Assembly (NCBI GenBank): GCA_026692885.1
Contig: JAPLNJ010000358.1
Coordinates: 1 to 16,782 of the forward strand
Reading direction: 5' to 3'
DNA from: Planctomycetota bacterium
GTDB taxonomy: Bacteria > Planctomycetota > Planctomycetia > Pirellulales > Pirellulaceae
DNA: 16,782 nt
How positions within the stretch are numbered: position 1 is the first letter of the stretch; every line of letters starts with the position of its first letter. Below are positions 133-16,782 of this stretch, one piece after another. Position numbers and translations under genes: made by a program. Under the pieces are notes generated by a model that saw nothing but the letters and a program-made list of their open reading frames with translations, ran no database searches and was not told the origin of the DNA.

Positions 133-3100
133 CTACTCGTGCGTCTCGGGCGACTCCGCGGCGTGGTGCTCGTGCTGGTGCGGTGACCACCACTCGGACA
201 AACCTTGCAGCACGTAGTAGAACACGGGTGTCAGGAAGATGCCGAAGAAGGTCACTCCCAGCATACCGGCAAACACCGAGGTGCCTAGGGTCTGGCGCAT
301 TTCGGCACCGGCTCCGGAGGCCAGCATCAGCGGCACCACGCCCAGGATGAAGGCGAAAGAGGTCATCATGATCGGCCGCAGACGAAGTTTCGAAGCTTCC
401 ACCGCGGCGTGCCAGCGCGGGAGGCCCGTTTCGCGTTGCTGCTTCGCGAATTCGACAATCAACACGGCGTTCTTACACGCCAGGCCCGCTAAGACCACGA
501 AGCCAATCTGCGTGAAGATGTTGTTGTCCATGCCACGGAGCGACACGCCCACCAAGGCACACAGCAGACTCATGGGCACGATCAAGATGATCGCCACCGG
601 TAGAGCCCAGCTTTCGTACTCGGCCGCATGCGTCAGGAACACGAACAGAATGCAGAGCGGGAAGATGAGCAGCGCCGTGTTGCCCGCCAGGATCTCCTGG
701 TAGGTCAGTTCGGTCCATTCGTACGCCATCGTGCTTGGCAGTTCCTGGTCGGCAAGTTGCTGCACCTTCTTCGCCGCATCCCCGGAACTGATTCCCGGCG
801 CCCCGGCGCCATTGATCGCCGCCGCCGTGTACATATTGTAGCGATTGATGAGCACTGGTCCGGCGGTATCTTGGACCGTGGCCAGCGTGCCCAGGGGCAC
901 CATGGCGCCTTTGGCGTTGCGGACTTTGAGTTGCCGGACATCCTCCGGGCGGGCGCGGAATTGGGAATCGGCCTGCAGGTTCACCTGCCAGGTCCGGCCG
1001 AACTGGTTGTAGTCGTTGACGTAGTAGCCGCCGAGATAGACCTGCAGGGTATTGAATACGTCGCTGAGCGCCACCCCCAGCGTCTTGCACTTCGTGCGAT
1101 CGATGTCCACGTACAACTGTGGCGTGTTGGCCCGGAACATCGAGAACAGACCGACCAAACCGGGCGTCTGGTTCCCTTTCTGGGTCAGGCTCTCGGTCTG
1201 GCCCTGGAGCATGGCCAGACCACTGTCGCTGGGGTCCTGGATCATGATCTTGAAGCCACCCGCGTTTCCCAGGCCATCCACGGGCGGCGCGCCGAAGACC
1301 CCGACCTGCGCCTCCTGGAGCTTGACGTAGCACTCCTGCCTTAGCTTGGCCGCAATCGCGTCAGCACGCAGTTCCGGGTCATGCCGGTAGTGAAACTCCT
1401 TGAGAATCACGAACATCGAGCCGAAGTTAGAAGCGTTGGCATTCAACAAGAACGACTGCCCGGCGATGCCCACCCGGTGCGCGACGCCCTCGGTCGCACG
1501 CACGATGTCATCTAGCTTGACCATCACCTCTTGGGTCCGCTGCAACGAGGCCGAATCAGGCAGTTGCACCGACACCAGCAGATACCCCTTATCCTGGTTC
1601 GGGATGAAGCCGGTGGGCACCTTCGTGAACTCGAAATAGGTCAAATACACCAATCCCACGTAGACCAGCAGCGCCACCACAGTCCCGCGCAGGCAGAGGT
1701 TCACCAGCCGGCCATAGACGGACGTGCCAGCGTTGAACAGTTGGTTGAAACCTTTGAACAGCCAACCGAAGACAAAGTTCAGCAGCCGCGTGAGAGGATC
1801 CTTCTGCTGGGCGTGCGGCTTGAGCAGAATGGCAGCCAGAGCCGGGCTGAGCGTGAGTGAATTGAAGGCGGAGATCAGCGTCGATGTAGCGATCGTCAAC
1901 GCAAACTGCCGGTAGAACTGGCCGGAGATGCCGGAGATGAACGCCGTCGGGATGAACACGGCACTCAGCCCGAAAGCGATGGCGATCACCGCCACGGTGA
2001 CTTCTTCCATGGATTTGTACGCCGCTTCGCGCGGCGAGAGTCCCTTTTCGATCCACCGCTCCACATTTTCCACGACCACAATGGCATCATCGACGACCAC
2101 CCCGATCGCCAGCACCAGCCCGCAGAGCGAAATATTGTTCAAGCTGAAGCCCAGTAAGGCCATCACCGCAAAGGTGCCGACCAGCGAGACGGGGACCGCG
2201 ATCAGCGGGATCAGCGTCGAACGCCAGTTCTGAAGGAACAGTAGCACCACGATGGCGACCAAGAAGATCGCATCGCGGAGGGCCTTGAAGACCTCCTTGA
2301 TAGATTCGGTGATGAAAGGCGTCGTGTCGTAGACGATCTTGTAGTCCAACCCCTCCGGAAACCGCTGCTCCAGTTCATCCATCTTCTGGCGGATGGCTTT
2401 GGCGGTGGCGACGGCATTGGAGCCGGGGAGCTGAAAGACGGCCAGCCCGACGGAATCCCGGCCGTCCAGCGTCGCGGTTTGATCCCGGCTCTTGGCGCCG
2501 AGTTCCACCCGGCCCACATCGCGCAGACGCGTCACTTGGCCCTGCGTTCCCGTCTTGATGATAATGTCGGCGAATTGCTGGGGATCCGACAGTCGGCCGA
2601 GCGTACTCATGGTGTACTGGAAATCCTGGCCCTGGGGGACCGGCGGCTGACCGATTTGGCCTGCCGCGACCTGGACATTCTGTTCCTTCAGGGCGTTCAC
2701 CACATCCGTGCTCGTCAGGCTGCGCGAAGCCAGCTTCTCGGGGTCCAGCCACAGCCGCATACTGTAGTCCTGCTGCCCCAAGAACGTCACGTCGCCCACG
2801 CCTTCCAGCCTCGCCAACTGATCCTTGACCTTGGTCGTCGCGTAGTTACTCAAGTACAGCTGGTCATAACGCTCGTCGGGCGAGTAGAGGTTGACGACCA
2901 ACATGATGCTAGGGGACTTCTTTTTCGTCGTGACGCCGGTCTGCTTGACCACGTCGGGCAGGGTGGGCGTGGCCATCGCCACACGGTTCTGGACCAGCAC
3001 CTGAGCCATGTCCAGGTTGACGCCCAAGGCGAACGTGACCGTCAGGTTATACGCTCCGTCGTTGGTGCACTGCGAGGACATGTACAGCATGTTCTCGACG

Positions 3101-3315
3101 CCGTTCACCTGCTGCTCAATGGGCGCGGCAACTGTGTCGGCAACCACCTTGGCGCTGGCCCCTGGGTAGGTACAGGAAACCTGGACCGTCGGCGGCGCGA
3201 TCTCGGGGTACTGCGCCACGGGTAGTACCAGCACGGCCACGATGCCTGCGACCGTGATGACGATCGACATTACCGCGGCAAAAATTGGGCGATCGATAAA
3301 GAATCGGGAGAACAT
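133..3315 (-). CDS. RND efflux pump, HAE1 family (AcrB/MexF/OqxB-like inner-membrane transporter)
   Basis: This 1060-aa protein is full length for the family. RND pumps are trimeric inner-membrane proton antiporters that take drugs or other amphiphiles from the periplasm and pass them to an outer-membrane channel. Seen in the sequence: the N-terminus begins MFSRFFIDRPIFA as in AcrB homologues; TM4 carries the Asp-Asp pair at 409-410 within GVVVDDAIVVVENVER; the partner residues are K948 (ACKNAVLIVEF) and R980 (RLRPIMMTSFAF). Thus the whole proton relay (AcrB D407/D408/K940/R971) is present. Two large periplasmic loops (about 40-335 and 565-870) follow TM1 and TM7. The segment around 745-780 (VFNTLQVYLGG, YYVNDYNQFGRTWQV) resembles MexF/OqxB-type pumps. 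The C-terminus is His/Glu-rich. The start at 3315 fits the family N-terminus; no good Shine-Dalgarno site precedes it. It is the second gene after the membrane-fusion protein. No TolC-like gene is visible. Substrate is unknown. Confidence 0.96.
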   Translation of the reverse strand: MFSRFFIDRPIFAAVMSIVITVAGIVAVLVLPVAQYPEIAPPTVQVSCTYPGASAKVVADTVAAPIEQQVNGVENMLYMSSQCTNDGAYNLTVTFALGVNLDMAQVLVQNRVAMATPTLPDVVKQTGVTTKKKSPSIMLVVNLYSPDERYDQLYLSNYATTKVKDQLARLEGVGDVTFLGQQDYSMRLWLDPEKLASRSLTSTDVVNALKEQNVQVAAGQIGQPPVPQGQDFQYTMSTLGRLSDPQQFADIIIKTGTQGQVTRLRDVGRVELGAKSRDQTATLDGRDSVGLAVFQLPGSNAVATAKAIRQKMDELEQRFPEGLDYKIVYDTTPFITESIKEVFKALRDAIFLVAIVVLLFLQNWRSTLIPLIAVPVSLVGTFAVMALLGFSLNNISLCGLVLAIGVVVDDAIVVVENVERWIEKGLSPREAAYKSMEEVTVAVIAIAFGLSAVFIPTAFISGISGQFYRQFALTIATSTLISAFNSLTLSPALAAILLKPHAQQKDPLTRLLNFVFGWLFKGFNQLFNAGTSVYGRLVNLCLRGTVVALLVYVGLVYLTYFEFTKVPTGFIPNQDKGYLLVSVQLPDSASLQRTQEVMVKLDDIVRATEGVAHRVGIAGQSFLLNANASNFGSMFVILKEFHYRHDPELRADAIAAKLRQECYVKLQEAQVGVFGAPPVDGLGNAGGFKIMIQDPSDSGLAMLQGQTESLTQKGNQTPGLVGLFSMFRANTPQLYVDIDRTKCKTLGVALSDVFNTLQVYLGGYYVNDYNQFGRTWQVNLQADSQFRARPEDVRQLKVRNAKGAMVPLGTLATVQDTAGPVLINRYNMYTAAAINGAGAPGISSGDAAKKVQQLADQELPSTMAYEWTELTYQEILAGNTALLIFPLCILFVFLTHAAEYESWALPVAIILIVPMSLLCALVGVSLRGMDNNIFTQIGFVVLAGLACKNAVLIVEFAKQQRETGLPRWHAAVEASKLRLRPIMMTSFAFILGVVPLMLASGAGAEMRQTLGTSVFAGMLGVTFFGIFLTPVFYYVLQGLSEWWSPHQHEHHAAESPETHE

Positions 3316-3333
3316 GGTCAGGTGCCGTTCTTT

Positions 3334-3438
3334 GTCAGTTGTCAGTTGTCAGTTGTCAGTTGTCAGGGGTCAGTTGTCAGTTGTCAGTTGTCAGTTGTCA
3401 GGGGTCAGGGGTCCGTTGTCAGGGGTCAGGGGTCCGTT
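3334..3438. repeat. 15-unit heptanucleotide tandem array
   Basis: Exactly 15 head-to-tail 7-bp units on the plus strand, with no phase breaks. There are three variants: T = GTCAGTT, G = GTCAGGG, C = GTCCGTT. Order from 3334 is TTTTG TTTTG GC GGC, so a five-unit block is itself duplicated. The array fills the gap between the membrane-fusion and RND pump genes. On the minus (coding) strand most units contain TGA, and because 7 is not a multiple of 3 the stops fall in all three frames. The stop codon of the upstream gene (3426-3428) is one of these. Similar heptamer arrays are known as STRR sequences in cyanobacteria; I infer an equivalent class here. Confidence 0.93.
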
Positions 3439-4724
3439 TTCTGTGCCCCCGACGCATTGCTCGCTCCATTCTTCGTGCCGCCGTCAGCTTTCTTCCCACT
3501 GCCGTCTGCTTTCTGTCCGACGTCGTTGACTGCCTGCCCACTGCCTTCTGCCGCCTTCGCCTCCACCGAGAAGCTGGCCATATCTACGGCTTTCGGTTCG
3601 ACGATTTTGCCCGGCCGCGCCCGCTGCAGGCCGATCACGATCACCTGCTCACCGCCCTGCAACCCCTCCTCGATCACCCGTAAGCCGTTTTCCAGTTTGC
3701 CGAGTTTGACAGGCCGGTATTCCACCTCGTTCTTGGCGTTGACGACCAACAAATACTTCTGCCCCTGATCGGTGCCGATCGCCCGCTCGGTCACCAGCAG
3801 CGCCGGATGCGGCTCGCCGATGGGAATGCGAACCCGCACGAAAAAGCCGGGGGCCAGGGCGTGCGACCCCGTTTTCCCGGTAGGATTCGGGAACTTGCCG
3901 CGAACTTTGATCGTGCCCGTGCTGGAATCAACCTGGTTGTCCACGAAGTCAATGTCCCCCCGATGCGGAAAGCCGACATCGTTGGCCAACGCCATCGTCA
4001 AAGGCGACTCAGGCGCGTCGCGCTGCGAAGAGATCTTGCCCTCCTTGACCAGCTGCATTAGCCGTAAGATCGTGCGTTCGTCCACATCGAAGTAGGCGTA
4101 CATCGGGTCCTGAGAGACGATGTTCGTCAGGGCGGTCGTGTCGGCGGTCACCAGGTTTCCCTTGGTCATCAAGGTCCGGCTGACGCGACCGGCGATCGGC
4201 GACGACAGCTTGGTGAACTTCAGGTTCAGATCGGCACTCTCCAAGTTGGCCTTGGTGGACTCCGCGGAAGCTACCGCCTCTTTGCCGGATGCAACAATCT
4301 TGTCGAAATCCGCCTGAGAAATCACGCCTTTCTTTGCGAGCGGCTCGTTGCGAGCGAGTTCGGCTTTTTGTAGCTCCACTTGCGCCTCGCTCAGTTTGAT
4401 CCGAGCGGCAGCGACATCGTACTGGGCCTGATAGGGCCGCGCATCGATTTCGAACAGCGGATCGTTCGCCTTGACGTCGCCGCCTTCCTGGAAGTAGATC
4501 TTCTCCAGATAGCCGGTCACCCGAGCGCGGATTTCCACGGACTCGACCGCCTCCGTCCGCCCGGTAAACTCTTCGTACTCAGCCACATCGCGCTGCAGCG
4601 GTTTGGCAACCGTCACCTCCGTCGGCGGAACCTTGGCGGCTCCCTGTTCCTGCTGCGTACAACCGAACACGGCTACCAGTGCCAAGTAGATGCCACACCC
4701 TTCAGGGACGAAGCGGAAGCTCAT
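3426..4724 (-). CDS. RND efflux membrane-fusion protein (periplasmic adaptor lipoprotein, AcrA/MexE-like)
   Basis: This 432-aa protein links an RND pump to an outer-membrane channel. Residues are numbered from the ATG at 4724. A short hydrophobic signal ends in the lipobox-like VFGC with Cys22, predicting a lipid-anchored periplasmic protein. The first lipoyl half is near 60-96 (VTGYLEKIYFQEGGDVKANDP), then an alpha-helical hairpin about 100-170. The second lipoyl half (SSPIAGRVSRTLMTKGNLV) is near 174-195, followed by the beta-barrel and membrane-proximal domains (VDSSTGTIKVRGKFPNP, LAPGFFVRVRIP). A TTG 12 bp upstream is also in frame, but the ATG is preferred because GGGG lies 7 bp before it. 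The last ~45 residues are Gly/Lys/Asp-rich with a 7-residue period from a translated DNA heptamer repeat. It is the first gene of the pair with the RND pump. Confidence 0.93.
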   Translation of the reverse strand: MSFRFVPEGCGIYLALVAVFGCTQQEQGAAKVPPTEVTVAKPLQRDVAEYEEFTGRTEAVESVEIRARVTGYLEKIYFQEGGDVKANDPLFEIDARPYQAQYDVAAARIKLSEAQVELQKAELARNEPLAKKGVISQADFDKIVASGKEAVASAESTKANLESADLNLKFTKLSSPIAGRVSRTLMTKGNLVTADTTALTNIVSQDPMYAYFDVDERTILRLMQLVKEGKISSQRDAPESPLTMALANDVGFPHRGDIDFVDNQVDSSTGTIKVRGKFPNPTGKTGSHALAPGFFVRVRIPIGEPHPALLVTERAIGTDQGQKYLLVVNAKNEVEYRPVKLGKLENGLRVIEEGLQGGEQVIVIGLQRARPGKIVEPKAVDMASFSVEAKAAEGSGQAVNDVGQKADGSGKKADGGTKNGASNASGAQKTDP

Positions 4725-4782
4725 AGACGGCCCCAACAGAGAAAGAGATTCGGATTGACCCTCGCCGGAGAAGCTAGGGGTC

Positions 4783-5308: not shown

Positions 5309-6154
5309 ATGTCCAAGCACGACAAGAAAAGGCGGGGCAAGACAGCCGATGTGGAAACGGTCGACAGCAACCAGCCGAAGTTGAAAGGCAAGGAGTACGC
5401 CAAGCAGTTGCGCAAACTCCAGACGGAGCTGTGCCTGTTCCAGGACTGGGTAAAGCACACCGGGCAGAGAATTATCGTGGTCTTCGAGGGCCGCGATGCT
5501 GCGGGCAAGGGGGGCACCATCCGAGCGCTCACCGAGCGGGTCAGCCCGCGCGTGTTCCGCGCGGTGGCCCTGCCGGCGCCCACCGAGCGGGAGAAGACCC
5601 AGATGTATGTCCAACGCTTTCTGGCCCACTTTCCGGCGGCCGGTGAGGTAGTGATCTTCGACCGCAGTTGGTACAATCGAGCCGGAGTGGAACACGTCAT
5701 GGGCTTCTGCACCAAGGAGCAGCACCGCGACTTCCTGCAAGTCTGCCCAGCCTTCGAACACTACATCGTCGACGGCGGCATCCGGCTGATCAAGTACTGG
5801 CTCGAAGTCAACAACGACGAGCAGAAACGGCGGTTCGAGGCGCGCATCGACGACCCGCTCCGCCAGTGGAAACTCTCCGCCATGGACCTCCCCTCACGCG
5901 AACGCTGGTACGAATACTCCCGCGCCAGGGACCTGATGCTGGAGGCCACTGATACCGAGTGGTCCCCCTGGCACATCATCCGTTCCGACAACAAGCGGCG
6001 GGCGCGGCTTAACTGCCTGTCCCATTTCCTGAGCCTGTTCCCCTACGAACCGGTGCCGCACGAGAAGGTCGAGCTGCCCAAACGTGCCATGCAGGACAGC
6101 TACGACGATGAGACGCCGATGAAGCAACGCCGCTGGATACCCGAGAAGTACTGA
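5309..6154 (+). CDS. ppk2: Polyphosphate kinase 2, class I single-domain type
   Basis: This 281-aa cytoplasmic enzyme transfers phosphate between polyphosphate and nucleoside diphosphates, typically polyP + ADP to ATP or the GTP/GDP equivalent, and the reverse. Visible motifs: Walker A GRDAAGKGGT (61-70, K67), Walker B VVIFDRSWYNR (114-124, D118) and the lid segment KRRFEARIDDPLRQWKLS (173-190). The MGFCT segment (131-135) after the Walker B region fits class I PPK2. The Lys/Arg-rich first 36 residues are outside the conserved core. The ATG is supported by a strong Shine-Dalgarno site (GGGGAGG, 5297-5303) 5 bp upstream, unusual for this window. It is followed after 4 bp by pyruvate kinase, so the two are probably co-transcribed. 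Nucleotide preference and direction cannot be read from the sequence. Confidence 0.95.
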   Translation: MSKHDKKRRGKTADVETVDSNQPKLKGKEYAKQLRKLQTELCLFQDWVKHTGQRIIVVFEGRDAAGKGGTIRALTERVSPRVFRAVALPAPTEREKTQMYVQRFLAHFPAAGEVVIFDRSWYNRAGVEHVMGFCTKEQHRDFLQVCPAFEHYIVDGGIRLIKYWLEVNNDEQKRRFEARIDDPLRQWKLSAMDLPSRERWYEYSRARDLMLEATDTEWSPWHIIRSDNKRRARLNCLSHFLSLFPYEPVPHEKVELPKRAMQDSYDDETPMKQRRWIPEKY

Positions 6155-6158
6155 CCTT

Positions 6159-7586
6159 ATGCTGCCCAACCACAAAACCAAGATCGTCGCCACCATCGGG
6201 CCCGCTTCGGAATCGCCGGAGATGCTGGAGCGTCTGATTCGCGCGGGGTTGAACATCGCACGGCTGAACTTCTCGCACGGCGACTTCACGGGTCACGCCG
6301 AGCGCATCGAGCACATCCGCGCCGCCGCACGCGTCACGGGCCAGCACGTCGCCATCATGGCCGACCTGCCCGGCCCCAAGATGCGAGTCGGCAAGATCGA
6401 GCCGGAGCCGATCCAGTTGCGCCCAGGCGAACGCTTCACGCTGACCAGCGAGGACATCGTCGGCAACGCCCAGCGGGTTTCGATGAGTTTTTCGCGATTG
6501 CCCCAAGTCGTGAAGCCGGGCGACCGGCTGTTCTTGAACGACGGACTGGTGCAACTGATCGTCGAGCGTGTGGCGGGCAACGAGGTCCACTGCCAAGTCG
6601 CCGTCGGTGGCGAACTACGCTCCAAGAAGGGCCTCAATTTGCCGGGCATTGATCTCGGCATCGGTGCGTTCACCGACCACGACCGCGCCTGCCTGGAATT
6701 TGCGCTCCAGAATGGCGTGGACGCGGTGAGCCAGTCCTTCGTGGAGACCGCCGCGGACATCGAAGCCGTGCGCGCCGCCGCCAAAGCCCTGGGTAGACAG
6801 CCCTTCCTGATCGCCAAGATCGAACGCGCGGACGCGCTCAAGAACTTTGATGAAATCCTGAAGGCCACCGACGGCATCATGGTGGCGCGCGGCGACCTGG
6901 GTGTGGAAGTGCCGATCGAGCAAATGGCCATCCTGCAGAAGCAACTGATTGCGAAAGCCAGCCTCGTGGGCAAGCCGGTCATCACGGCCACCCAGATGCT
7001 CGAATCCATGGTGTCCAGCCGCCTGCCCACGCGCGCCGAGTCCACGGATGTGGCCAACGCCATCCTGGACGGCACCGACGGCATCATGCTCTCGGCCGAG
7101 TCGGCGATGGGCAAGTATCCCGAGGAAGCCGTGGCGATGCTGGCGAAAATCGCGGCCTTTACGGAAGCCCACCGGCCACCCACGCGGCTCAACGATCTCA
7201 GGGCGCTGTCCAGTCAGCACCCGTCGACCACGGCAGCCGAAGCAATCGCTTCGGTGGTGGAACATGCGTTGGAGACGGTGCCGTGCGCCGCCGTGTTTGT
7301 GCCCACCCGGACCGGCACCACAGCGCGGATGATTTCGCGATTTAATCCGGCGGTGTGGATTGTCGCCTTGAGCCGGGACGCTGCCGTCTGCCAGGGATTG
7401 GCGTTCTCGTACGGCGTGCACGCGGATCAGCTCGCCGAGGATCCGGAGAACTGGCGCGACTTCGCTCGGAATTGGCTCCGCGAACATCAGTTGCCCGGTG
7501 CCGTCGCCATGCTGGTCGCCGGCCCGTCCCCGCGCAATCCGGACGCCAACCACCGCCTGGAGTTCATGCGCGTTGGCGATTTCTAG
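6159..7586 (+). CDS. pyk: Pyruvate kinase
   Basis: This 475-aa enzyme catalyses phosphoenolpyruvate + ADP to pyruvate + ATP, the last step of glycolysis, in the cytoplasm. The N-terminus KTKIVATIGPAS is diagnostic. Substrate and cation residues are seen in ARLNFSHG (34-41). The active-site signature FLIAKIERADAL (216-227) contains catalytic K220 and E222; ARGDLGVE (243-250) and ITATQML (275-281) follow. The B domain spans roughly 73-170 and the C-terminal allosteric domain about 350-475. K74 in DLPGPKMRVG occupies the position where Lys rather than Glu marks potassium-independent pyruvate kinases (known for the family; inferred here). SQSFVET (191-197) replaces the more common SFVR. The start 4 bp after the ppk2 stop suggests translational coupling. 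The gene is convergent with the adaptor gene ending at 7734. Confidence 0.97.
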   Translation: MLPNHKTKIVATIGPASESPEMLERLIRAGLNIARLNFSHGDFTGHAERIEHIRAAARVTGQHVAIMADLPGPKMRVGKIEPEPIQLRPGERFTLTSEDIVGNAQRVSMSFSRLPQVVKPGDRLFLNDGLVQLIVERVAGNEVHCQVAVGGELRSKKGLNLPGIDLGIGAFTDHDRACLEFALQNGVDAVSQSFVETAADIEAVRAAAKALGRQPFLIAKIERADALKNFDEILKATDGIMVARGDLGVEVPIEQMAILQKQLIAKASLVGKPVITATQMLESMVSSRLPTRAESTDVANAILDGTDGIMLSAESAMGKYPEEAVAMLAKIAAFTEAHRPPTRLNDLRALSSQHPSTTAAEAIASVVEHALETVPCAAVFVPTRTGTTARMISRFNPAVWIVALSRDAAVCQGLAFSYGVHADQLAEDPENWRDFARNWLREHQLPGAVAMLVAGPSPRNPDANHRLEFMRVGDF

Positions 7587-7733: not shown

Positions 7734-8960
7734 TTATCCACCGACCAGCAGGCGGCTTCTCACCCGGATCCCGTCGCGCACCTTGTCACTGGGATGCAGG
7801 ATCACCTGCGTGTCGGCGTTCAAGCCGTCGAGCACTTGGGCTTGCAGGCTGTTGCGCTGGCCAAGCTTGATCACGCGCAGTTGGGCCCGGCCGTTCTCGG
7901 CCACGAACACCGCCCAATCATCGCCGGAGCGGAACAAGGCACCCGTCGGCACCTGGAACACATCCTCCTGCTCCCAGACGACGATCCGGGCCTCGACTCG
8001 AAACCCGTCGGCCAGCGTCGACGGCTTCTGCCCCCGATCCAAGTCGATGATCACCCACACGCGTTGTTCTTCCACGCCCAGCGCTGAGACCTTGGTGAAG
8101 GCCGAGGGTTCCACGAGCCTCACCCGGCCCAGCAACCGCTGTTGGCCGCCCCATTGCTCCAGCCAAGCTCCGGAGCCGGGTCGGATTTTCACGGCATCGC
8201 TGGACAGCACATCGACTTCCACTTCCAGCTGATCGGGGTCGTCGGGATTGCCCAGTTCCAGCAGTCGCGTGCCGGCCTGGACCACCGTCTCGCTTTCCTG
8301 GAACACGCGCAGGACTTTGCCGGGGTCGGGCGAGTGAATCTCGAAGCTTCTGTTTTCCGGCAGTAGCTCCTGCGCGGGTCGCCTCCGCAGGAGGGCGGCT
8401 TGGGCCATTTCCAGTTCAAACTTGGCGACGTCCTCGGCGAATTTGGCCGCCTTGCAATCCTGCTCGCGGGCTCGGAAGACCATCTCGGCATCGTCCCACT
8501 GATTCTGCGCAACCACGTTCCGCTGGGCCAAATCCTGCACACGCTTCAGCTCTTTTCGGGCGCGTTCCAGTTCGACCCGAGCACGTTCCATGGTGGGACC
8601 GACCCGTTCCAGCAGGGACTCGGCCGCACGGACTTTCGCCTGAGCCTGAGCCACCGCGCGGGGATCTAGAAGTTCCGGTTCGTGCGGCTCGATAGTGGCC
8701 AGCGTCTGGCCCGCGGTGACGTTGTCCCCCGGTTTCAGTCCGATCCGTAATAACCGTCCGGCTAGCGGCGCGGCGACCACGTAGCGTTCCTTGATCCGCG
8801 TCTGGCCGTCTTCGTCGACCGTGACCGTCAGCGGACCACGGGACACGACTCCCAACTCCACGTCCCACGGTTGCGGCCAGAACGCGTACGCGAGCGCCGC
8901 TGCCACCGCCAGCAGGAACAGCAAGGACACGAGTGTGCGGACGAAGGACTTCACGATCAT
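7734..8960 (-). CDS. HlyD-like periplasmic adaptor of an ABC exporter
   Basis: This 408-aa protein has one N-terminal membrane segment (about 10-28, FVRTLVSLLFLLAVAAALAYAF) and a periplasmic remainder. The first lipoyl half is near 60-92 (VVAAPLAGRLLRIGLKPGDNVTAGQ). A long Glu/Arg/Ala-rich coiled coil spans about 100-195. The second lipoyl half is near 208-238 (IHSPDPGKVLRVFQESETVVQAG), then beta-barrel domains to the end. Adaptors of this type bridge a MacB/DevC-like ABC transporter to an outer-membrane channel. Its ATG directly abuts the TAA of the permease gene (no gap), and the permease 3' end supplies a GGGAG Shine-Dalgarno. The two proteins are therefore probably made together. It is the last gene of the four-gene minus-strand unit. 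No outer-membrane channel gene is present. The cargo is unknown. Confidence 0.9.
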   Translation of the reverse strand: MIVKSFVRTLVSLLFLLAVAAALAYAFWPQPWDVELGVVSRGPLTVTVDEDGQTRIKERYVVAAPLAGRLLRIGLKPGDNVTAGQTLATIEPHEPELLDPRAVAQAQAKVRAAESLLERVGPTMERARVELERARKELKRVQDLAQRNVVAQNQWDDAEMVFRAREQDCKAAKFAEDVAKFELEMAQAALLRRRPAQELLPENRSFEIHSPDPGKVLRVFQESETVVQAGTRLLELGNPDDPDQLEVEVDVLSSDAVKIRPGSGAWLEQWGGQQRLLGRVRLVEPSAFTKVSALGVEEQRVWVIIDLDRGQKPSTLADGFRVEARIVVWEQEDVFQVPTGALFRSGDDWAVFVAENGRAQLRVIKLGQRNSLQAQVLDGLNADTQVILHPSDKVRDGIRVRSRLLVGG

Positions 8961-11327
8961 TTACTCCCGGGTCTTCAAGACGGCAATCAGGTCCAAGTGA
9001 TCCAAACGGCGACGCACGAGCAGTCCCGACACAACCGCCGCCGCCACGACGACCAGCGTCGAGAACCCGTACGTGGAGCGCTGGATCACCAGCGGCACGC
9101 GATAGACCTCCGTATCCAGTCCCAACGTGGCCCAGGCCGCAAAAACATAGCCTAGGATCAAGCCCAACGGAATAGCCGCCAGGGTCACGACCGCCAACTC
9201 GCCCAGCAAGATGGCGGAGATTTCCGCACGCGTGAAGCCGATGACCCGCAAGGTGGCCAGATCCCGACTGCGTTCGGACAGCGAAATCCGGGCACTATTG
9301 TACACCACGCCAAAGGCGATGACGGCGGCAAACATGACGTTGAACGTCCGCATCCGGCCCAGGTTCTCGGCAATGGTGTCCTGAAACCCTTGCACCGAGG
9401 CACGTTTGACCGTCACGCCAGCCACGCGCGGCGTGTTCTTCAGCGTGCGGTACAGGTCGTCCAGACGCCGCTCGTCCACCGCCAGGAACGCCCCGGACAG
9501 GGTGTCTCCTTCGCGCAACAAGCGATGCAGGGCCTGGATCTCCATGTACGCATTGGTGCCGCCGTACTCCGTGATCAGGGCGGTCACCGGGACCTCGCGG
9601 ATCGTGCGTTCGCCTTCCAGTACCTCGACCGTAATGCGCTCGCCCAGGCGCACTTCCAACAGCTCCGCCAGCTTGGACGACACCAGCAGGCCCTGATCGG
9701 GAACGGTCACCACCCGTTCGTGCTGGTCCATCAGCCGATACAGATCCGCACCGCGCGGCACCCCCAGGATCGCCACACGCCGCGTGCGATGGCCGAACCG
9801 GAACCGCGTCGAGACCCCACGTAGCGGCTCGCATTTCAGGACGCCGGGCAAGTGCTCCAGTTCGTGCACGACGTGGGCCGTGGTCGGCTCGACAAAACTG
9901 ACGATCAGATCCTGGCGTTGGGAGAGCACGAACTGAAAGTAAATGATGTAGTTAATGGAGTCGATCGTGAAGCTGCCCAGCACCACGATGGCCACGGCCA
10001 GGGCGATGCCCAGGCACGACATGGCCGCTTTCACCGGCTTACGTTCGAGCTCTCGCAGAATCATGCGCCCCGCCTGAGGCAAGAAGTACCCCAGTCCGCT
10101 GCGATCGAGCAGCGTGGCCCGGTAGACGGCTGGAGGTTCCGGCCGCATCGCCTCGGCGGGGGGCAGCTTGACTGCCCGGCGCACCGCGGCCAACGTGCCG
10201 AGCGTGGCGGCCGCCGCACTGCTGATGAAGGCCGCGCACACGACCATCCCATCCAACTGGAAGCCGAATACGGGGAAACGGTAGAAACTCGTGTACATCT
10301 CAGTCAGGCTGCGGCCCATGCGGGCCCCCACCCACGTGCCCAGCAGGGTGCCGATCACGGCCACCCACAGCACCAGCTTGAGGTAATGCAGTCCGATCTC
10401 CCACTTGGTGTAGCCGAAGGCCTTCAGCGTAGCGATCTGTTCGCGTTGCACGCCGATCAAACGCGTGAGCACGACGTTCAACAGGAACGCCGCCACCGAG
10501 AAGAAGATGATCGGCGCGATCAGCCCCATGCTGCGCAGCTGCTTGATCTCGTCCGAGATGTACTGGTGCGAGACGTGCTCCTTGCGGCCACCGGCCCCCC
10601 GAGCGCCGTAGGGCGCCGTCAGGTCGTCCAAACGCTTGATCACCTCCGCTTCGGATGCGCCGCGCAGGAGCGTTAACGACACGTCGTTGAACGCGCCGTC
10701 CATATTAAAGGCGGTGGCCAACTGCTTGTAGCCCATCCAGAAAATGCCGAACCGGCGATTGTCGGGCAGCGCATTGATGCCCCGGATCTGAATGATGTAC
10801 TCCGGCGACAGCACGATGCCCACGATCTTCAGCTGCTGCCGTCGGCCGTTGATCACCGCCGTGACGCTGCCGCCGAGGTCCAGTTGGTTCGCCTCTGCAA
10901 AGGACTCGCTGACCAGTACCTCGTTGCCGCGTTCCGGCTCGATCCAGCGGCCCCGCCGCAGGTGCAAGTCATTGACCGTCGGCTGGCGGCGCTCCGGGAT
11001 AGAAATCAGCCGGCCGATGGCGGGTTCGACCAGTCCCTGCACGTCGAGGCTGACATCGACCGCGATTCGCAGTTGCAATTGGGCCACGCCGGGGATTTCT
11101 GCGATCCGGCGACCGAGCGAAAGCGGTGCCCGTTTGAGCTGCGCGAACACGTGCCCGAAGCGGTAATGTTCGTAGTACGTTTCCTGAGATTGCTTCAGCG
11201 AGCGCAGCGTGCTCAGCGACATCACGAACGTGCCCACACCGGACGCGATGACCAGGCAGATCGCGACCGCCTGGCCCCGAATGCCCCACAGGTCTCGCAA
11301 CACTTTGCGGTCGATCGCTCGCAGCAT
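8961..11327 (-). CDS. ABC exporter permease with two FtsX/MacB domains
   Basis: This 788-aa inner-membrane protein probably couples ATP hydrolysis to extrusion of a substrate through the periplasmic adaptor. I count eight membrane segments: near 18-38, 267-289, 316-338, 360-383, 436-455, 661-680, 704-730 and 752-770. Large periplasmic MacB-type domains lie at about 40-265 and 457-660. The two halves are homologous: the cytoplasmic coupling motif QREQIATLKAFGYTKWEI (294-311) recurs as RSRDLATLRVIGFTRAEI (686-703). Single-FtsX permeases such as MacB or DevC are about half this size and dimerise. Here one chain may supply both halves. A 119-bp gap with palindromes separates it from the ATPase gene upstream. 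There is no strong Shine-Dalgarno before the ATG. Confidence 0.93.
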   Translation of the reverse strand: MLRAIDRKVLRDLWGIRGQAVAICLVIASGVGTFVMSLSTLRSLKQSQETYYEHYRFGHVFAQLKRAPLSLGRRIAEIPGVAQLQLRIAVDVSLDVQGLVEPAIGRLISIPERRQPTVNDLHLRRGRWIEPERGNEVLVSESFAEANQLDLGGSVTAVINGRRQQLKIVGIVLSPEYIIQIRGINALPDNRRFGIFWMGYKQLATAFNMDGAFNDVSLTLLRGASEAEVIKRLDDLTAPYGARGAGGRKEHVSHQYISDEIKQLRSMGLIAPIIFFSVAAFLLNVVLTRLIGVQREQIATLKAFGYTKWEIGLHYLKLVLWVAVIGTLLGTWVGARMGRSLTEMYTSFYRFPVFGFQLDGMVVCAAFISSAAAATLGTLAAVRRAVKLPPAEAMRPEPPAVYRATLLDRSGLGYFLPQAGRMILRELERKPVKAAMSCLGIALAVAIVVLGSFTIDSINYIIYFQFVLSQRQDLIVSFVEPTTAHVVHELEHLPGVLKCEPLRGVSTRFRFGHRTRRVAILGVPRGADLYRLMDQHERVVTVPDQGLLVSSKLAELLEVRLGERITVEVLEGERTIREVPVTALITEYGGTNAYMEIQALHRLLREGDTLSGAFLAVDERRLDDLYRTLKNTPRVAGVTVKRASVQGFQDTIAENLGRMRTFNVMFAAVIAFGVVYNSARISLSERSRDLATLRVIGFTRAEISAILLGELAVVTLAAIPLGLILGYVFAAWATLGLDTEVYRVPLVIQRSTYGFSTLVVVAAAVVSGLLVRRRLDHLDLIAVLKTRE

Positions 11328-11356
11328 GACCCGCTCGTTTCCGTCGCTGACAGCTT

Positions 11357-11425
11357 CCCTCGCCCCGATACTCCGGGGAGAGGGGGCGGGGGTGAGGGGT
11401 TCTCGTTCCCAATCCCAAGAACGAG
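11357..11425. repeat. Two consecutive hairpins between ATPase and permease genes
   Basis: The first stem is CCCTCGCCCCG (11357-11367) with CGGGGAGAGGG (11374-11384), 10 of 11 paired, loop of 6. The second is CTCGTTC (11402-11408) with GAACGAG (11419-11425), loop of 10. They lie inside an operon, in the only sizeable gap (119 bp, 11328-11446). They could stabilise or attenuate the transcript between ATPase and permease; the first stem also looks like a dispersed GC-rich repeat. Confidence 0.6.
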
Positions 11426-11446
11426 GTAGGTGACGGGCGAATCAAC

Positions 11447-12154
11447 TCACCACTCCAATTGACTCGCCAGCAGCTTAGTCTCATTGCTCCGCACATGATG
11501 TACACGGCCGTCGGACAGCGAGATCACGCGATCCGCCATAGCCGCGATGACCGCGTTGTGGGTGATCACCGCGGTGGTCGTGCCCAGCTCGCGGTTCACG
11601 CGTTCGATCGCCTCCAAGACCACGATTCCGGTGTGCACGTCCAAGGCGCCGGTTGGCTCGTCGCACAACAGCACGTCGGGACGTTTGGCGATCGCCCGGG
11701 CGATCGCCACCCGCTGCTGCTCGCCGCCGGAAAGCTGCGCCGGAAAGTGATCCATACGATCCGACAGATTCACCAGCCCCAACGCATCTCGCGGGTCCAT
11801 CGGGTCCCGGGCGATCTCGGTGATCAGCGCCACGTTTTCCCGCGCCGTCAGGCTGGGGATCAGATTATAGAACTGGAACACGAATCCCACGTGCTGACGC
11901 CGATAGCGGGTCAGCGCCGTGTCGTCGTAGGCGGTCAAGTCATGTTCCAGGTACCGCACGGTGCCGCGGGTCGGCACATCCAGTCCGCCGAGGATATTGA
12001 GCAAAGTCGATTTGCCGCTGCCCGACGGCCCCAGCAGCACCACGAACTCGCCCTGATACAGATCCAGATCGATACCGCGCAGCGCATGCACCTGGAACTC
12101 GCCCATTGAGTACACTTTGGTGATCCCGCGGGCCTGAAACACGACTTCGGTCAT
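11447..12154 (-). CDS. ABC exporter ATPase (MacB/LolD/DevA-like)
   Basis: This 235-aa nucleotide-binding subunit would pair with the FtsX-type permease downstream. All catalytic motifs are present: Walker [10 protein letters not shown] (42-50), Q-loop FVFQ (Q94), signature [14 protein letters not shown] (141-154), Walker [13 protein letters not shown] (161-172) and switch His199 (VITHN). The segment [18 protein letters not shown] is typical of the MacB/LolD group. The start is the ATG at 12154, where the family N-terminus begins ([15 protein letters not shown]). An open frame extends upstream to 12814 but only overlaps the previous gene and carries no ABC sequence. The ATG lies 11 bp after the stop of the cyanophycin-synthetase paralogue, so co-transcription is very likely. 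Confidence 0.95.
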
Positions 12155-12165
12155 GGTAGGACGAG

Positions 12166-14307
12166 CTACTCCCGATCGAGAACGAATGAATTCAGGCCGC
12201 TTTGAATCGTCGGTGGAGAAATGTGCAGCGCCCACGCCGCCGCCACCGCCGCCAACACGCCGCTCCGGATCGCTGGCCCGCGCAGGTCGGTCGAGGCCAG
12301 GTCGGCCAGTAGATGCTCTTGGTCGCCGTGCGCGGCGATGACGGAAGTCCCGCGGATGAAGACCGCCTTGCCGCCTTGCGCCCGTTGGGCCCGGACGGCT
12401 AGGTGAGTGGGCTGCTCTGCAAACAGCAGGACCTCCCCAGCGCAGGACGTTGGCAGGGCGGAAGCCCAGGCCGATTCGGCAACCACGACCACAACGCCGT
12501 CGCTCTCGAGCGTTCCCAGCAGAGCCTGTCGGGCAGCTGCGAGTTCGTCCGGGCTTGCCGACGACGGGAAATTGGCCGCCGTTTCCGCCGATTCCCCCTC
12601 GGCCATGACGACCACTTGGCAACGGTCGAAGCCCAGTCCGTCGCAGACCACGCCAGTCTCTGGCGTCTCGAACACCGCGGCCTCGATCAGCGGATGCAAC
12701 AGGAGATCGGCCGCACTGCGAGCGTCCGCAGCGTTGTCGCTGCGTAGCAATTGTCCGTTCGCGTAGGTCCCGGCAGCACACGCCAGCCCGGTCCGGACTC
12801 CAGCGACGTGCCACAGGTGGCCGATCAGCCGAGCGATCAGCGTCCGATCGCTGCCGCCACTGACCGCGACCAGCGGAATGCGTCCGGTCGCAGTCGGCGG
12901 AAACAGGGTAGCGACGATCAATTCGCCGACGGCACGCGGCAGGCCCGTGCCCGGTTGCAGATGCATCTGCAGCCCGGGTCCCGCGTTGACTTCGACCACG
13001 GCGCCCCCTTGGAGACGCAACGGCCGAGAGATGTCGTCGGCGACGATATCCACCCCGGCCACATCCAGTCCTACCGTCTTGGCCGCCAACACGGCGGCGG
13101 CAGCATTCTCCGGATGCACTTGGTCGGTGACGTCGTTGGACAAGTTGCCATTGCGTTGGACCAGCACCTGCTCGTCCGCCGGTGGCACCGACTCGGTGAA
13201 ATATCCCTGATGCGCCAGGACGGCCAGGTTGGGCGGATCGAATTCCACGGGACTGAGCGGCAACTCGGCAGCCTCACCTCGCCGCGGGTCGCGATTCAGT
13301 TCGGCCACCAGTTCGGTCACCGTCCGCTGGCCATCCCCCACGACAAAGACGGGATCCCCGCGGGTGGCCGCGACCAACTGATCGCCGACGACCAACAACC
13401 GATGCTCGGCCCCGGAGATGGAACGTTCGACGAGGACACCGTCCCCTTCGACCGCTGCCTGGTCAAAGGCCGAAACGATCTCTTCGGGTCGTGTCAGGCC
13501 GATGAAGACCGCGCGACCATGATTCCCATTGAGCGGCTTGACCACCACCGGGCTGTGCAGTTCTCCCGCGGCTCGGCAAGCATCCTGGGCGTCGGACACG
13601 AGTCGACCTGCGGGGACCGGCACGCCCACGGCACGCAGCAGACGTTTCGTCAGTTCCTTGTCGCACGCAATCGTCTCGGCGATGGCGCCCGTGCGGTCGG
13701 TTTCCGCAGCGCAGATGCGATGCTGGCGGACTCCCTGACCCAACTGGACCAGACTGCCGGTATTCAGCCGACGTACCGGAATCCCCCGGGCGCGGGCCGC
13801 CGAAACAATCGCCTGCGTGCTGGGGCCGAGGCAGACTTGATCCGCCACATCTCGCAACCGTTTCACTTCCTCCGTCAGCGGATACGGCCGGTCGTCAGCC
13901 AGCGCCAGACATAGGTCTCGAGCTACGTCCGTACATGCCCGAGCCAATTCCGCTTCCTCGAACTCGATCAGCACCCGAAAAACACCGTGCTCGGGTGTGG
14001 GAACCGCCTGCGTAAACGACACTCTGGTCCCAGCCAACGTCTGCAAGCTCAGCGTCAACTGCCCGATCAGTTCCGCCAGCAGCGTCTCTTCGCTGCTCGG
14101 CTTGGAGAAATTCAACTGTCCCGCCTGGCCTGTTGGGTCTTTGAGGGCAGACAGGCACTGGGCGACACGCTCTCTGAGGGCGAGGAAGTCCGTTGCCGAC
14201 GAAACGGCCGGCAGCCTGCCTCGCAGGCAGACCTCTAACACGGGAACGCGAGCCCAGATGTTGGGACCCGGCAGGGCACGGACGCAGCGCAACTCCAAAC
14301 CACCCAT
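12166..14307 (-). CDS. Degenerate cyanophycin-synthetase paralogue (CphA2/CphA'-like ATP-grasp ligase)
   Basis: This 713-aa protein has the CphA layout but is shortened. The N domain is about 1-160 (ALPGPNIW, 11-18), the ATP-grasp G domain about 215-470, and a partial Mur-ligase-like domain about 475-713. Retained ATP-grasp residues are K257 (VVVKP), GNHGR (261-265), E294-R295 and E439/N441 ([12 protein letters not shown]). Relative to the neighbouring CphA, it lacks the HxxEH...E motif of the N domain (now E79, G82, Q83, S87). The Mur P-loop GTNGKTT is GGSDRTL (484-490), so the catalytic Lys is Arg. The chain ends where the Mur central domain normally ends, so the C-terminal Mur domain is absent. 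ATP-grasp substrate loops are also altered. It probably ligates a peptide or dipeptide with one active site, as CphA2 enzymes join beta-Asp-Arg; the exact substrate is unknown. The ATG has GAGGGAGA 9 bp upstream. It is the first gene of the exporter unit and is head-to-head with cphA. Confidence 0.88.
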
Positions 14308-14408
14308 TACTTTATGTCTCCCTCGGCCGAGTGACGATGCAACATGAGCTTAGCACAATGGCAGAGCGGAAACAACGGCCCGCCCCACGCACCAGCGGCC
14401 GCAGCCGA

Positions 14409-14467
14409 GTAGGTCAGGCTTTCCAGCCTGACGTAAACCGTGCGTCAGCCTGGAAAGGCTGACCTAC
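14409..14467. repeat. Paired-hairpin (BIME/REP-like) element B
   Basis: Two 25-nt copies in inverted orientation (14409-14433 and 14443-14467) are separated by 9 nt. Each folds alone: GTCAGGC/GCCTGAC around TTTCCA in the left copy, and GTCAGCC/GGCTGAC around TTTCCA (read on the minus strand) in the right copy. The copies differ only by one flipped base pair, G-C against C-G. The unit sequence is unrelated to element A, but the architecture is the same. I associate this GTAGGTCAGSCTTTCCAG-type repeat with planctomycete genomes, from memory. Confidence 0.88.
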
Positions 14468-14804
14468 AACATGCATGCACCGCGCGATCATCCTATCGGT
14501 TAGCGTCACCCTGTTCTTTCGCGGTCCTTGGCTGCGTTTTGACAAAATCATCCGGGAAACAGAATATTTTCGAAAACCGTCAGGAATCGTGTCGCACCCT
14601 GTGGGAAAATGTCAATTCTACTCGCAAGCCCTCCACGGTGGATGCGAGTCCAACGTCTGGACTCTGACCCGCGGTGGGCCGCACGGGAAGCACTTCACTT
14701 GTCGCAGGGGCAAAGCGTGTCCTGAGTTTCGGTAGAACTGCTTGACCCAGCGGCGTTCAAGTCCGCCGCGTGGCGGTCCGATGCTACGATGATCGACAGA
14801 CGCA

Positions 14805-14834
14805 AAAGGAGTTCATCAGATGGACGACCCTTGA
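14805..14834 (+). other. Shine-Dalgarno plus minimal open frame (MDDP-stop)
   Basis: AAAGGAG (14805-14811) lies 8 bp before an ATG (14820) that opens a frame of only four codons, Met-Asp-Asp-Pro, then TGA. It may be a leader mini-ORF, the start of a decayed gene, or chance. No downstream continuation in another frame was recognised. Confidence 0.2.
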
Positions 14835-15296
14835 TAGGAAGTGAACCGACCAGACGAGAAGTAGTGGGGGGGAAAGTTCGTGGCGGACGGTTGCATTGCC
14901 CACCTCGCAAGATTAAAAAAGAACGGTTCAAACTACGAGGGCGCGAGAATCCTGCGAAACTAGGTGACCTGCCTGGACACTCTGTCCACTTTATCTGTTT
15001 AAGCCTCCGGTTGACCGACGCGGCGGTTCTGCCGCACCTGCAACTTGTGCCTAGCCGGTGGGCGGTACGGGAAAAGTGGTTGAGTTTCCGACGGTCGTCC
15101 GCCGTGTACAGTTGCGATCAGTAGCGACCATTCGGAAGGATCGACATTGTGGCCCTGGACGGCAATGGATGTGCATGGGGCACAGGCTGCCTATGCACGC
15201 GAACCACGTTGAACTCACTTTGGATCATTTCTCCCTGAAATCGCGAAGCGGCGCCAACCACGCGATTCCGGCAACGTCGTAGGAGAGGTGTCTCCA

Positions 15297-15347
15297 GCGG
15301 GCGCGACAGGACTCAGACCAGACCACCGCCCGCACCTGTCTTGGAAA
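15297..15347 (+). promoter_or_regulatory. Interleaved leader stems and ribosome-binding region of cphA
   Basis: Stem a: GCGGGCG (15297-15303) with CGCCCGC (15327-15333). Stem b: GACAGG (15305-15310) with CCTGTC (15335-15340). The order a-b-a'-b' means they either exclude each other or form a pseudoknot. The 1-nt gaps between a and b and between a' and b' make mutual exclusion likelier. Stem b ends directly before TTGGAAAG, the probable ribosome-binding site (GGAAAG, 15342-15347), 10 bp before the ATG at 15358. This is a plausible translational switch; no ligand class is recognised. Confidence 0.4.
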
Positions 15348-15357
15348 GCTCACATAT

Positions 15358-16782
15358 ATGGAATTCCGTAAAGTCTTGGCCCTGCGTGGCCCGAACATCT
15401 GGGCCAACTCGCCCGTCATCGAGGCTTGGGTGGACCTGGGCGAGTTGAAGGACCGTGCGTCGAACGAAATCCCGGGCTTCAACGAACGCCTGATGAGTTG
15501 GCTGCCCACGATGATCGAGCACCGCTGCAGCATTGGCGAGCGCGGAGGATTCTTCGAGCGGCTGCGGCGGGGCACCTATATGGCGCATATCTTAGAGCAC
15601 GTGACGCTCGAGATTCAGACGCTGGCTGGCGTCGAAGTCGGCTATGGCCGGGCCCGCGAGACCTCGGAAGAAGGCGTCTACAAGGTCGTCTTCAAGTACA
15701 AAGAGGAAAACCTGGGCCGGGCCTGTATCGCCACCGCTCGCGAGTTGTTGCTGGCCGCCGTACACGATCGGCCCTTCGACGTGCAGGCGGCGATTCATCC
15801 CTTACACGAGATGGCAGAGCGGTTCATGTTGGGCCCCAGCACGAACGCGATTGTCCAGGCCGCGCGCGAGCGGGGCATCCCGCACTATCGCTTGAATACC
15901 CAGAGCTTGGTGCAGTTCGGTTACGGCTCGAAACAGCGTCGTATTCAGGCTGCCGAGACCGATCGCAGCAGCGCCGTTGCCGAGTCGATCGCCCAGGACA
16001 AAGACCTGACTCGCATGTTCCTGCAAACGGTCGGAGTCCCCGTCCCAGACGGACGGCCCGTCACGGACGCCGAAGACGCCTGGGCAGCCGCCCAGGAGAT
16101 CGGTGCCGCTGTGGTCGTCAAGCCGCAGGACGGCAGCCAGGGCCGTGGCGTGGCCACGAACCTGCACACTCGTGAGCAGGTCATCGCGGCCTACCAGGCG
16201 GCTTTGCAAGAGAGCGACTCGATCATCGTGGAACGGTACGCGGCCGGGCACGACTATCGTCTGTTGGTCGTCGGTGGCAAAGTGGTCGCGGCGTCGCGGC
16301 GTGAGCCGGCCCATGTGATCGGCGACGGCACGCACACGATCCGCCAGTTGGTCGACGTCGCCAACACCGACCCGCGGCGCGGGGACCATCACGCCAACGT
16401 CTTGAGCAAGATGCGCCTGGATGCCGTCGCCTTGGGCGTGTTGCACGACCAAGGCTGCACGCCTGAGTCGATTCCGGCCGTCGGACAGTTGGTGCTGATC
16501 CGCCGGAATGCCAACTTGAGCACGGGCGGCACGGCGATTGACGTGACCGAGCGCGTGCACCCGGCCGTGGCGGCCCGCGCGGTGGACGCGGCCCAAGTGA
16601 TTGGGTTGGATCTCTGCGGTATCGATGTCGTGGCCCGCGACATCAGCATCCCGTTGGAGGAGCAGGGCGGGATCGTGGTCGAGGTCAACGCCGCCCCCGG
16701 CCTGCGGATGCATTTGGCGCCGTCGGTCGGCGTACCGCGTCCGGTGGGGGAAGCGATCATCGACATGATGTTCGAGCCGGGC
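15358..16782 (+). CDS. cphA: Cyanophycin synthetase, 5' part (cut by the right edge)
   Basis: 475 codons are visible without a stop; the full protein should be near 870-900 aa. CphA builds cyanophycin (poly-Asp backbone with Arg side chains), a cytoplasmic nitrogen and carbon reserve: the ATP-grasp domain adds Asp and the Mur-like domain adds Arg. Seen: N domain 1-160 beginning MEFRKVLALRGPNIW; HILEHVTLE (77-85) giving H77, E80, H81, E85, which fits the metallopeptidase-like primer-generating site reported for the N domain (from memory); RLNTQSLVQFGYG; ATP-grasp residues K255 (VVVKP), GSQGRG (259-264), E-R in IIVERY; PAHVIGDG (317-324); NLSTGGTAID (386-395); E442 and N444 in EVNAAPGLRMHL. The Mur domain lies outside the window. 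The ATG at 15358 is chosen from the family N-terminus and GGAAAG 10 bp upstream. Confidence 0.95.
   Translation, partial: MEFRKVLALRGPNIWANSPVIEAWVDLGELKDRASNEIPGFNERLMSWLPTMIEHRCSIGERGGFFERLRRGTYMAHILEHVTLEIQTLAGVEVGYGRARETSEEGVYKVVFKYKEENLGRACIATARELLLAAVHDRPFDVQAAIHPLHEMAERFMLGPSTNAIVQAARERGIPHYRLNTQSLVQFGYGSKQRRIQAAETDRSSAVAESIAQDKDLTRMFLQTVGVPVPDGRPVTDAEDAWAAAQEIGAAVVVKPQDGSQGRGVATNLHTREQVIAAYQAALQESDSIIVERYAAGHDYRLLVVGGKVVAASRREPAHVIGDGTHTIRQLVDVANTDPRRGDHHANVLSKMRLDAVALGVLHDQGCTPESIPAVGQLVLIRRNANLSTGGTAIDVTERVHPAVAARAVDAAQVIGLDLCGIDVVARDISIPLEEQGGIVVEVNAAPGLRMHLAPSVGVPRPVGEAIIDMMFEPG

Follow-up and report, generated by a model that had tools for sequence, protein, structure and literature searches.

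Do a degenerate cyanophycin synthetase and an ATP-binding cassette (ABC) exporter encoded in one row of genes serve a common product? This question is raised by a contig of 16,782 base pairs (bp) from a Planctomycetota bacterium of the family Pirellulaceae (assembly GCA_026692885.1, contig JAPLNJ010000358.1), the full length of which is referred to as the window. On its minus strand, a 713-amino-acid (aa) paralogue of cyanophycin synthetase (CphA), an ABC ATPase, a double-FtsX permease and an HlyD adaptor follow each other at distances of 11, 119 and 0 bp, with the permease stop codon TAA abutting the adaptor ATG; gene order, strand and junctions are thus as given in a preliminary description made from the sequence alone. 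As detailed below, the locus looks like a variant of a known arrangement and not like a new system, the unusual part being the type of ABC transporter. An even chance is given to the reading that the window represents a rearranged locus of a CphA pair and an ABC transporter to which a type VII exporter was recruited, with the paralogue serving as single-site ligase. The relevant features are the following, class I and class II being terms introduced here for two kinds of CphA:

15358–16782, plus strand: class I cyanophycin synthetase (CphA1), truncated at the window end (open frame; NF010623/TIGR02068; HxxEH N-site and 19-aa acceptor loop)
14308–15357, no strand: divergent intergenic region of 1,050 bp between paralogue and class I CphA
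12166–14307, minus strand: 713-aa short class II CphA paralogue (NCBIfam profiles, alignment to 7wac, site table)
12155–12165, minus strand: 11-bp junction from paralogue stop to ATPase start
11447–12154, minus strand: ABC ATPase of 235 aa, MacB/YbbA/LolD-like (NCBIfam matches, motifs)
11328–11446, minus strand: 119-bp junction without terminator-like site or inverted repeat
8961–11327, minus strand: 788-aa double-FtsX permease of the type VII (mechanotransmission) kind (PF02687 and PF12704, two each; PDB profile matches)
7734–8960, minus strand: HlyD/RND_mfp periplasmic adaptor of 408 aa with a single N-terminal hydrophobic segment (TIGR01730 above cut-off; hydropathy)

The four minus-strand genes probably form one transcription unit, as had been proposed, in line with the lack of terminator-like sites in their junctions (between 7500 and 15600, four such sites were found as against 6.4 expected from shuffles); in particular, none separates ligase and ATPase. 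The class I gene starting at 15358 is divergent from this unit and runs off the window. NF010623 and TIGR02068 match its product over the whole length, with scores below the cut-offs because the gene is cut, and the protein is 77% identical to the CphA1 of a sampled planctomycete genome (G369).

The 713-aa protein scores 761 bits against NF010623, below the cut-off of 877 bits, and fails the CphA1 model TIGR02068 with 566 bits versus a curated cut-off of 850 bits. Alignment to the solved CphA1 7wac stops at chain position about 723, hence the M lid is absent, and the P-loop of the Mur-like M site, GTNGKTT in CphA1 (pattern GxNGKT), is replaced by SGGSDRTL. The N-site motif of CphA, HxxEH (PMC9262961), is missing as well. 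With the loss of two of the three CphA sites, the earlier view of a degenerate paralogue is borne out. The ATP-grasp (G) site is kept (K217, K257, H263, R303, R316), and E439 and N441 are presumably kept metal ligands, judging from ATP-grasp enzymes in general. Together with P0042, P0043 and nine homologues of 54–96% identity, the window protein forms a clade of 12 (SH-aLRT 97) that is separate both from class I and from tandem-pair class II proteins in a tree of 67 selected rows, which includes no CphA2 row and has SH-aLRT as its only support. In all 12 members, the equivalents of K220, K261, H267, R309, R323 and N394 are conserved (residues and their roles according to PMC9427784 and PMC9262961), while M P-loop and HxxEH N-site are found in none of them. 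The acceptor loop comprises 14 aa in 12/12 members and is thus 5 aa shorter than the 19-aa loop of the 28/28 class I proteins. At the position of R458, 11 members have Q (Q447 in the window protein) and one has M; the E215 equivalent is T in the window protein, a glutamate being present in just 3 of the 28 class I rows, and S396 could not be reliably placed owing to the acceptor-loop gap. N394 is described as holding the beta-carboxylate of aspartate, with R458 close to the alpha-carboxylate (PMC9427784).

By definition, CphA2 possesses the G site only, without M P-loop, M lid or N motif (PMC9427784, PMC9262961). Judged by its anatomy, the 713-aa protein would accordingly qualify as a CphA2-like single-site ligase. 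The structures 7ta5 and 8fxh, which are taken here to be the cyanobacterial CphA2 although their PDB names are silent on this, share with it the single ATP-grasp site, the loss of M P-loop and M lid and the missing N-site motif. Orthology to CphA2 is rejected by score, as the protein is nearer to CphA1 (phmmer, 386 bits to 7wac versus 172 bits to 8fxh), and it belongs to a subfamily of its own. Relatives of more than 50% identity were not detected among the E 1e-110 matches in the families of G232 (9 genomes), G431 (51 genomes) and G369 (119 genomes). The second-closest relative, P0002 (84%), and an 84% HlyD relative, P0243, are each placed on a contig of 132,308 bp; from this equal contig size, ligase-exporter linkage is probably kept in one 84% relative.

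A look at CphA genes elsewhere suggests where the paralogue belongs. Among 80 CphA loci, many of them from related beta-proteobacteria and so not independent, 59 hold a class I plus a class II gene (pairs being defined by same strand and a distance within 800 bp), ten a class I gene with an unclassified open reading frame (ORF), eight class I only and three class II only. The class I G domain shows the 19-aa acceptor loop, R458 and mostly Q267, and the N-site is absent in 59/59 pair members, while the class II G domain has a 14-aa loop, no R458 and H267, with the N-site present in 57/59 pair members. In 14-aa loop, kept H267 and lost R458, the 713-aa protein fits the class II traits. Nor is a short, M-deficient class II protein unusual, since 29 of 62 class II proteins comprise 760 aa or less (some being cut by contig ends). 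The idea that H267-to-Q in class I reflects loss of function within pairs was rejected, as class I genes from genomes with a single CphA match, for example G369, also encode Q. At one of the loci (L203; G365:C13, 8971–13506), the synthetase is, by our reading, split in two: a 722-aa protein retains H267 of the G site but not the M P-loop, and a 786-aa protein, encoded 6 bp upstream in the same direction, has its M P-loop (GTNGKTT) intact and its G domain much shortened; NF052233, an ABC transporter family treated in the following, lies divergent beyond this split synthetase. The split suggests that G and M activities of cyanophycin synthetase could be divided between subunits. Two CphA genes are also mentioned for Herminiimonas (PMC5670224).

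Many CphA loci carry an ABC gene at constant distance, identified as the MsbA-like NF052233, which is named "cyanophycin metabolism-associated ABC transporter" in NCBIfam. The model scores above cut-off in 4/4 genes tested and NF052234 (DUF1854) in 2/2, and tblastn with the Achromobacter pair placed NF052233 at 60 of the 80 CphA loci and DUF1854 at 56. Of 32 planctomycete genomes bearing CphA, 30 have NF052233 above cut-off (exceptions G564 and G656; the sample excludes 21 genomes with weaker CphA matches), compared with none of 50 planctomycete genomes without a CphA match at E 1e-100, the search in the 32 genomes serving as positive control. Hence, the preliminary statement that no exporter partner of cyanophycin enzymes has been described had to be dropped. 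In 11 of the 32 genomes, NF052233 is divergent from CphA with a match-to-match gap of 612–1,170 bp, and ten of the 16 genomes with a CphA1 at least 67% identical to that of the window have it in this divergent slot; in the other six, it is found on another contig (G005, G010, G011, G787, G804) or 28 kb off (G006). In the window, the corresponding slot, 1,050 bp from the class I CphA, is occupied by the paralogue together with the type VII exporter. By tblastn, NF052233 and DUF1854 are absent from the 16.8-kb window, where the best match to an NF052233 protein is the window ATPase with 32% over the nucleotide-binding domain (NBD) alone, and the window exporter lacks the fused transmembrane domain (TMD) and NBD of MsbA type, scoring above 880 bits, that mark NF052233.

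Compared with the loci combining a CphA pair with NF052233 and NF052234, the window likewise has both CphA classes and an ABC transporter, in divergent orientation and with a gap of about 1 kb. It differs in the ABC superfamily (FtsX type VII plus HlyD, with no NF052233 or DUF1854 within 16.8 kb) and in the class II gene, which lies on the exporter's strand and not in tandem beside class I. The remainder of the genome of the window species probably carries NF052233; since nearly all CphA genomes keep this gene, addition of the type VII exporter is likelier than replacement. In the literature searched, the phrases "cyanophycin metabolism-associated" and "DUF1854" were not found, though subscription papers on paired cphA genes may describe such loci, and no CphA exporter is named in the titles and abstract openings listed. 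A described cyanophycin utilisation (uptake) locus includes a transporter (PMC10206079).

The following scheme might account for the locus. The 713-aa protein would operate in the cytoplasm, beside CphA1, as a single-site ATP-grasp ligase activating cyanophycin-type chains at their C-terminus. With its loop shortened by 5 aa and R458 changed to Q, it may use a different acceptor in place of, or in addition to, free aspartate, similar to CphA2 with beta-Asp-Arg. The exporter would have been brought under the same promoter by rearrangement, resulting in co-expression, and would act on envelope or periplasmic substrates; the ligase product would not leave the cytoplasm through this pump.

As for the exporter, a complete core spanning inner membrane and periplasm was correctly recognised beforehand. 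The ATPase carries Walker A, LSGG and LLCDEP motifs; its best NCBIfam matches are LolD, MacB, DevA and YbbA, all under their cut-offs, and start at residues 3–7 of the 235-aa ATG form, leaving a longer GTG ORF unsupported. In a defence library, only cross-matches of the ATPase were obtained. The permease combines two FtsX and two MacB_PCD stretches, with LolE/LolC as best PDB profile matches, and with ATPase, FtsX/MacB_PCD permease and HlyD adaptor adjacent to each other, the trio classifies as type VII tripartite exporter. A separate ATPase and an FtsX permease with MacB-like periplasmic domains are shared with MacAB, LolCDE, YbbAP and DevBCA, and the HlyD adaptor type with MacA and DevB. In contrast to these systems, the 788-aa permease of the window unites two FtsX domains and is accompanied by an HlyD adaptor, and ATPase and permease stay under every NCBIfam cut-off shown.

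Of 392 Planctomycetota genomes sampled, 46 have a permease match of at least 45% identity (a 47th, G315, has one over half the length only); within a single order, permease matches reach E 1e-150 or better in 35 of 400 genomes. Neighbourhoods were examined at 40 of the 46 loci: order and strand of ATPase, permease and adaptor are kept in 33 and those of permease and adaptor in 37, the seven loci without full trio order having the ATPase off the contig end (three), missing despite room (three) or on the opposite strand (one). Genes upstream of the exporter vary, with a short-chain dehydrogenase-like gene (our naming) recurring in five loci, and at L166, L168, L169, L180 and L188 the contig end is too near to show the gene preceding the ATPase. 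A CphA relative was found at none of the 40 exporter loci (tblastn, E 1e-12). Likewise, none of 130 CphA-relative loci showed an FtsX or HlyD partner, 50 of them extending only about 1.5 kb past the match and others being cut by contig ends. Only G385 combines trio and CphA cleanly in a single genome, the complete trio at 1.56 Mb being separated by 3.4 Mb from a tandem pair of CphA genes at 4.92 Mb on the same contig. In G117, a 54% permease at 1.89 Mb stands alone, with neither ATPase nor adaptor matched, and class I CphA is located at 5.17 Mb; permease and CphA are 5.8 Mb apart in G167 and on different contigs in G205 and G276.

Co-occurrence is in line with this picture. Related to the 46/392 exporter genomes, a permease is present in 2 of 9 genomes with CphA at E 1e-140 or better (1.06 expected, P about 0.29) and in 5 of 30 with CphA at E 1e-100 (3.52 expected, P about 0.27). 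When every candidate was scored in 17 CphA genomes, a permease relative appeared in four (G385, G117, G010 and G011), none on the contig stretch of CphA, that of G010 being 42% identical with two stops and that of G011 46–47% in two pieces. In the order-level draw, CphA matches at E 1e-110 were obtained in 3 of 400 genomes, none among the 35 with the exporter; such large draws scored two candidates per genome, making absences softer than in searches scoring every candidate. The exporter is thus independent of the paralogue, a type VII module general to planctomycetes. The 1196-aa protein P0203 was discarded as permease-adaptor fusion, as its residues from about 660 to 780 are unaligned and resemble out-of-frame permease, so that it shows gene adjacency only. 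In 20 of 119 genomes of the G369 family, there is another permease family of equal size, 32–35% identical to the window's, which probably represents a paralogous exporter.

The notion of the preliminary description, i.e., that the ligase makes a peptide or cyanophycin-like oligomer which ATPase, permease and HlyD adaptor together export or deliver to the envelope, is therefore difficult to uphold. MacAB and Lol systems work at the periplasmic side, and cytoplasmic substrates are not known for type VII pumps. Type VII systems are described to extract their substrates where the inner membrane faces the periplasm (PMC12646458). Because CphA products arise in the cytoplasm, a shared substrate is unlikely by mechanism, and direct export of the ligase product by the type VII exporter is unlikely as well. 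The absence of CphA from all 40 exporter loci, a co-occurrence no better than chance and the distance of 3.4 Mb in G385 also argue against such a dedicated pair. In addition, the contigs of 70–78% permease relatives match none of the 119 CphA-relative contigs in bp, a weak point, as the matching covers one contig per cluster, the longest, and the top 120 rows per list (119 for CphA). In favour of the pair are the 11-bp junction between ligase and ATPase, the linkage probably kept on the 132,308-bp contig, and the slot beside CphA1, which holds NF052233 in 11/32 genomes; as NF052233 follows CphA, some link between CphA and ABC transport is real. The separation of ligase homologues and exporter that had been named beforehand as a refutation is thus seen in part, namely in G385 and at the exporter and CphA loci surveyed. 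Altogether, a dedicated shared substrate is not borne out, and the pair is considered improbable.

Somewhat better placed, albeit still rather unlikely, is a chance rearrangement by which an unrelated housekeeping exporter was set behind the paralogue, with co-transcription being functionally meaningless. The exporter occurs widely, elsewhere unlinked and preceded by varying genes, and the partner following CphA is NF052233; moreover, ABC genes are common (34–99 first-look candidates per genome), so that an ABC unit would turn up in a given slot by chance in a few per cent of cases by our estimate. However, an ABC transporter in the CphA1 slot of relatives too would then be coincidence, and the linkage apparently persists in the 84% relative. 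Very improbable is a catalytically silent paralogue, either tuning CphA1 in a mixed oligomer or sensing arginine or aspartate. The loss of two of three sites and the pairing of class I and class II genes in 59/80 loci would suit it, but a silent protein would not need the equivalents of K220, K261, H267, R309, R323 and N394, kept in 12/12; R458 and E215 are changed, though E215 is E in only 3/28 class I rows. Several points also weigh against the rearranged CphA-pair locus with recruited exporter, which is nevertheless preferred here. The slot comparison rests on position and not on common descent of the neighbours, and in 19 of the 30 NF052233 genomes the gene is not divergent within 1.5 kb of CphA (16 have it on another contig and others at least 28 kb away; in G365, it is 3.0 kb off with a CphA-like gene in between). 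N394, kept in 12/12, leaves use of free aspartate by the ligase possible. The locus is seen within 16.8 kb of sequence; tree support is SH-aLRT only, and the likeness of class II CphA to CphA2 is anatomical.

The CphA-following ABC neighbour is recorded in a protein-family name, and with the window, another ABC type, unrelated to the first, is seen at a locus of this kind. Speculatively, and with only a small chance of being correct, CphA loci might be generally coupled to ABC transporters, the MsbA-like NF052233 and the type VII FtsX/HlyD exporter, members of unrelated superfamilies, both having been recruited beside CphA1. Cyanophycin is regarded as cytoplasmic reserve; if such coupling were true, planctomycetes and many proteobacteria would employ cyanophycin-type peptides or arginine-rich conjugates in the envelope or for export, in addition to storage in the cytoplasm. 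The window also points to a predicted subfamily of single-site CphA-like ligases with altered acceptor pocket, the product of which is directly assayable.

Searches against Rfam and for viral contigs gave nothing useful. In the divergent intergenic region, an inverted repeat of 25 nucleotides (nt) with 92% complementarity and arms 9 nt apart is present at 14409–14467, REP-like by our reading. At 133–4736, the minus strand encodes an AcrB-type RND permease (NF000282 above cut-off) and a MexE/OqxA-like adaptor (TIGR01730 above cut-off), with 7/21-bp tandem repeats (TTGTCAG) between both genes at 3332–3438 that extend into the adaptor 3' end. Convergent with the exporter unit, a Polyphosphate kinase 2 gene (TIGR03707 above cut-off) is directly followed by a pyruvate kinase gene at 5309–7586 on the plus strand.

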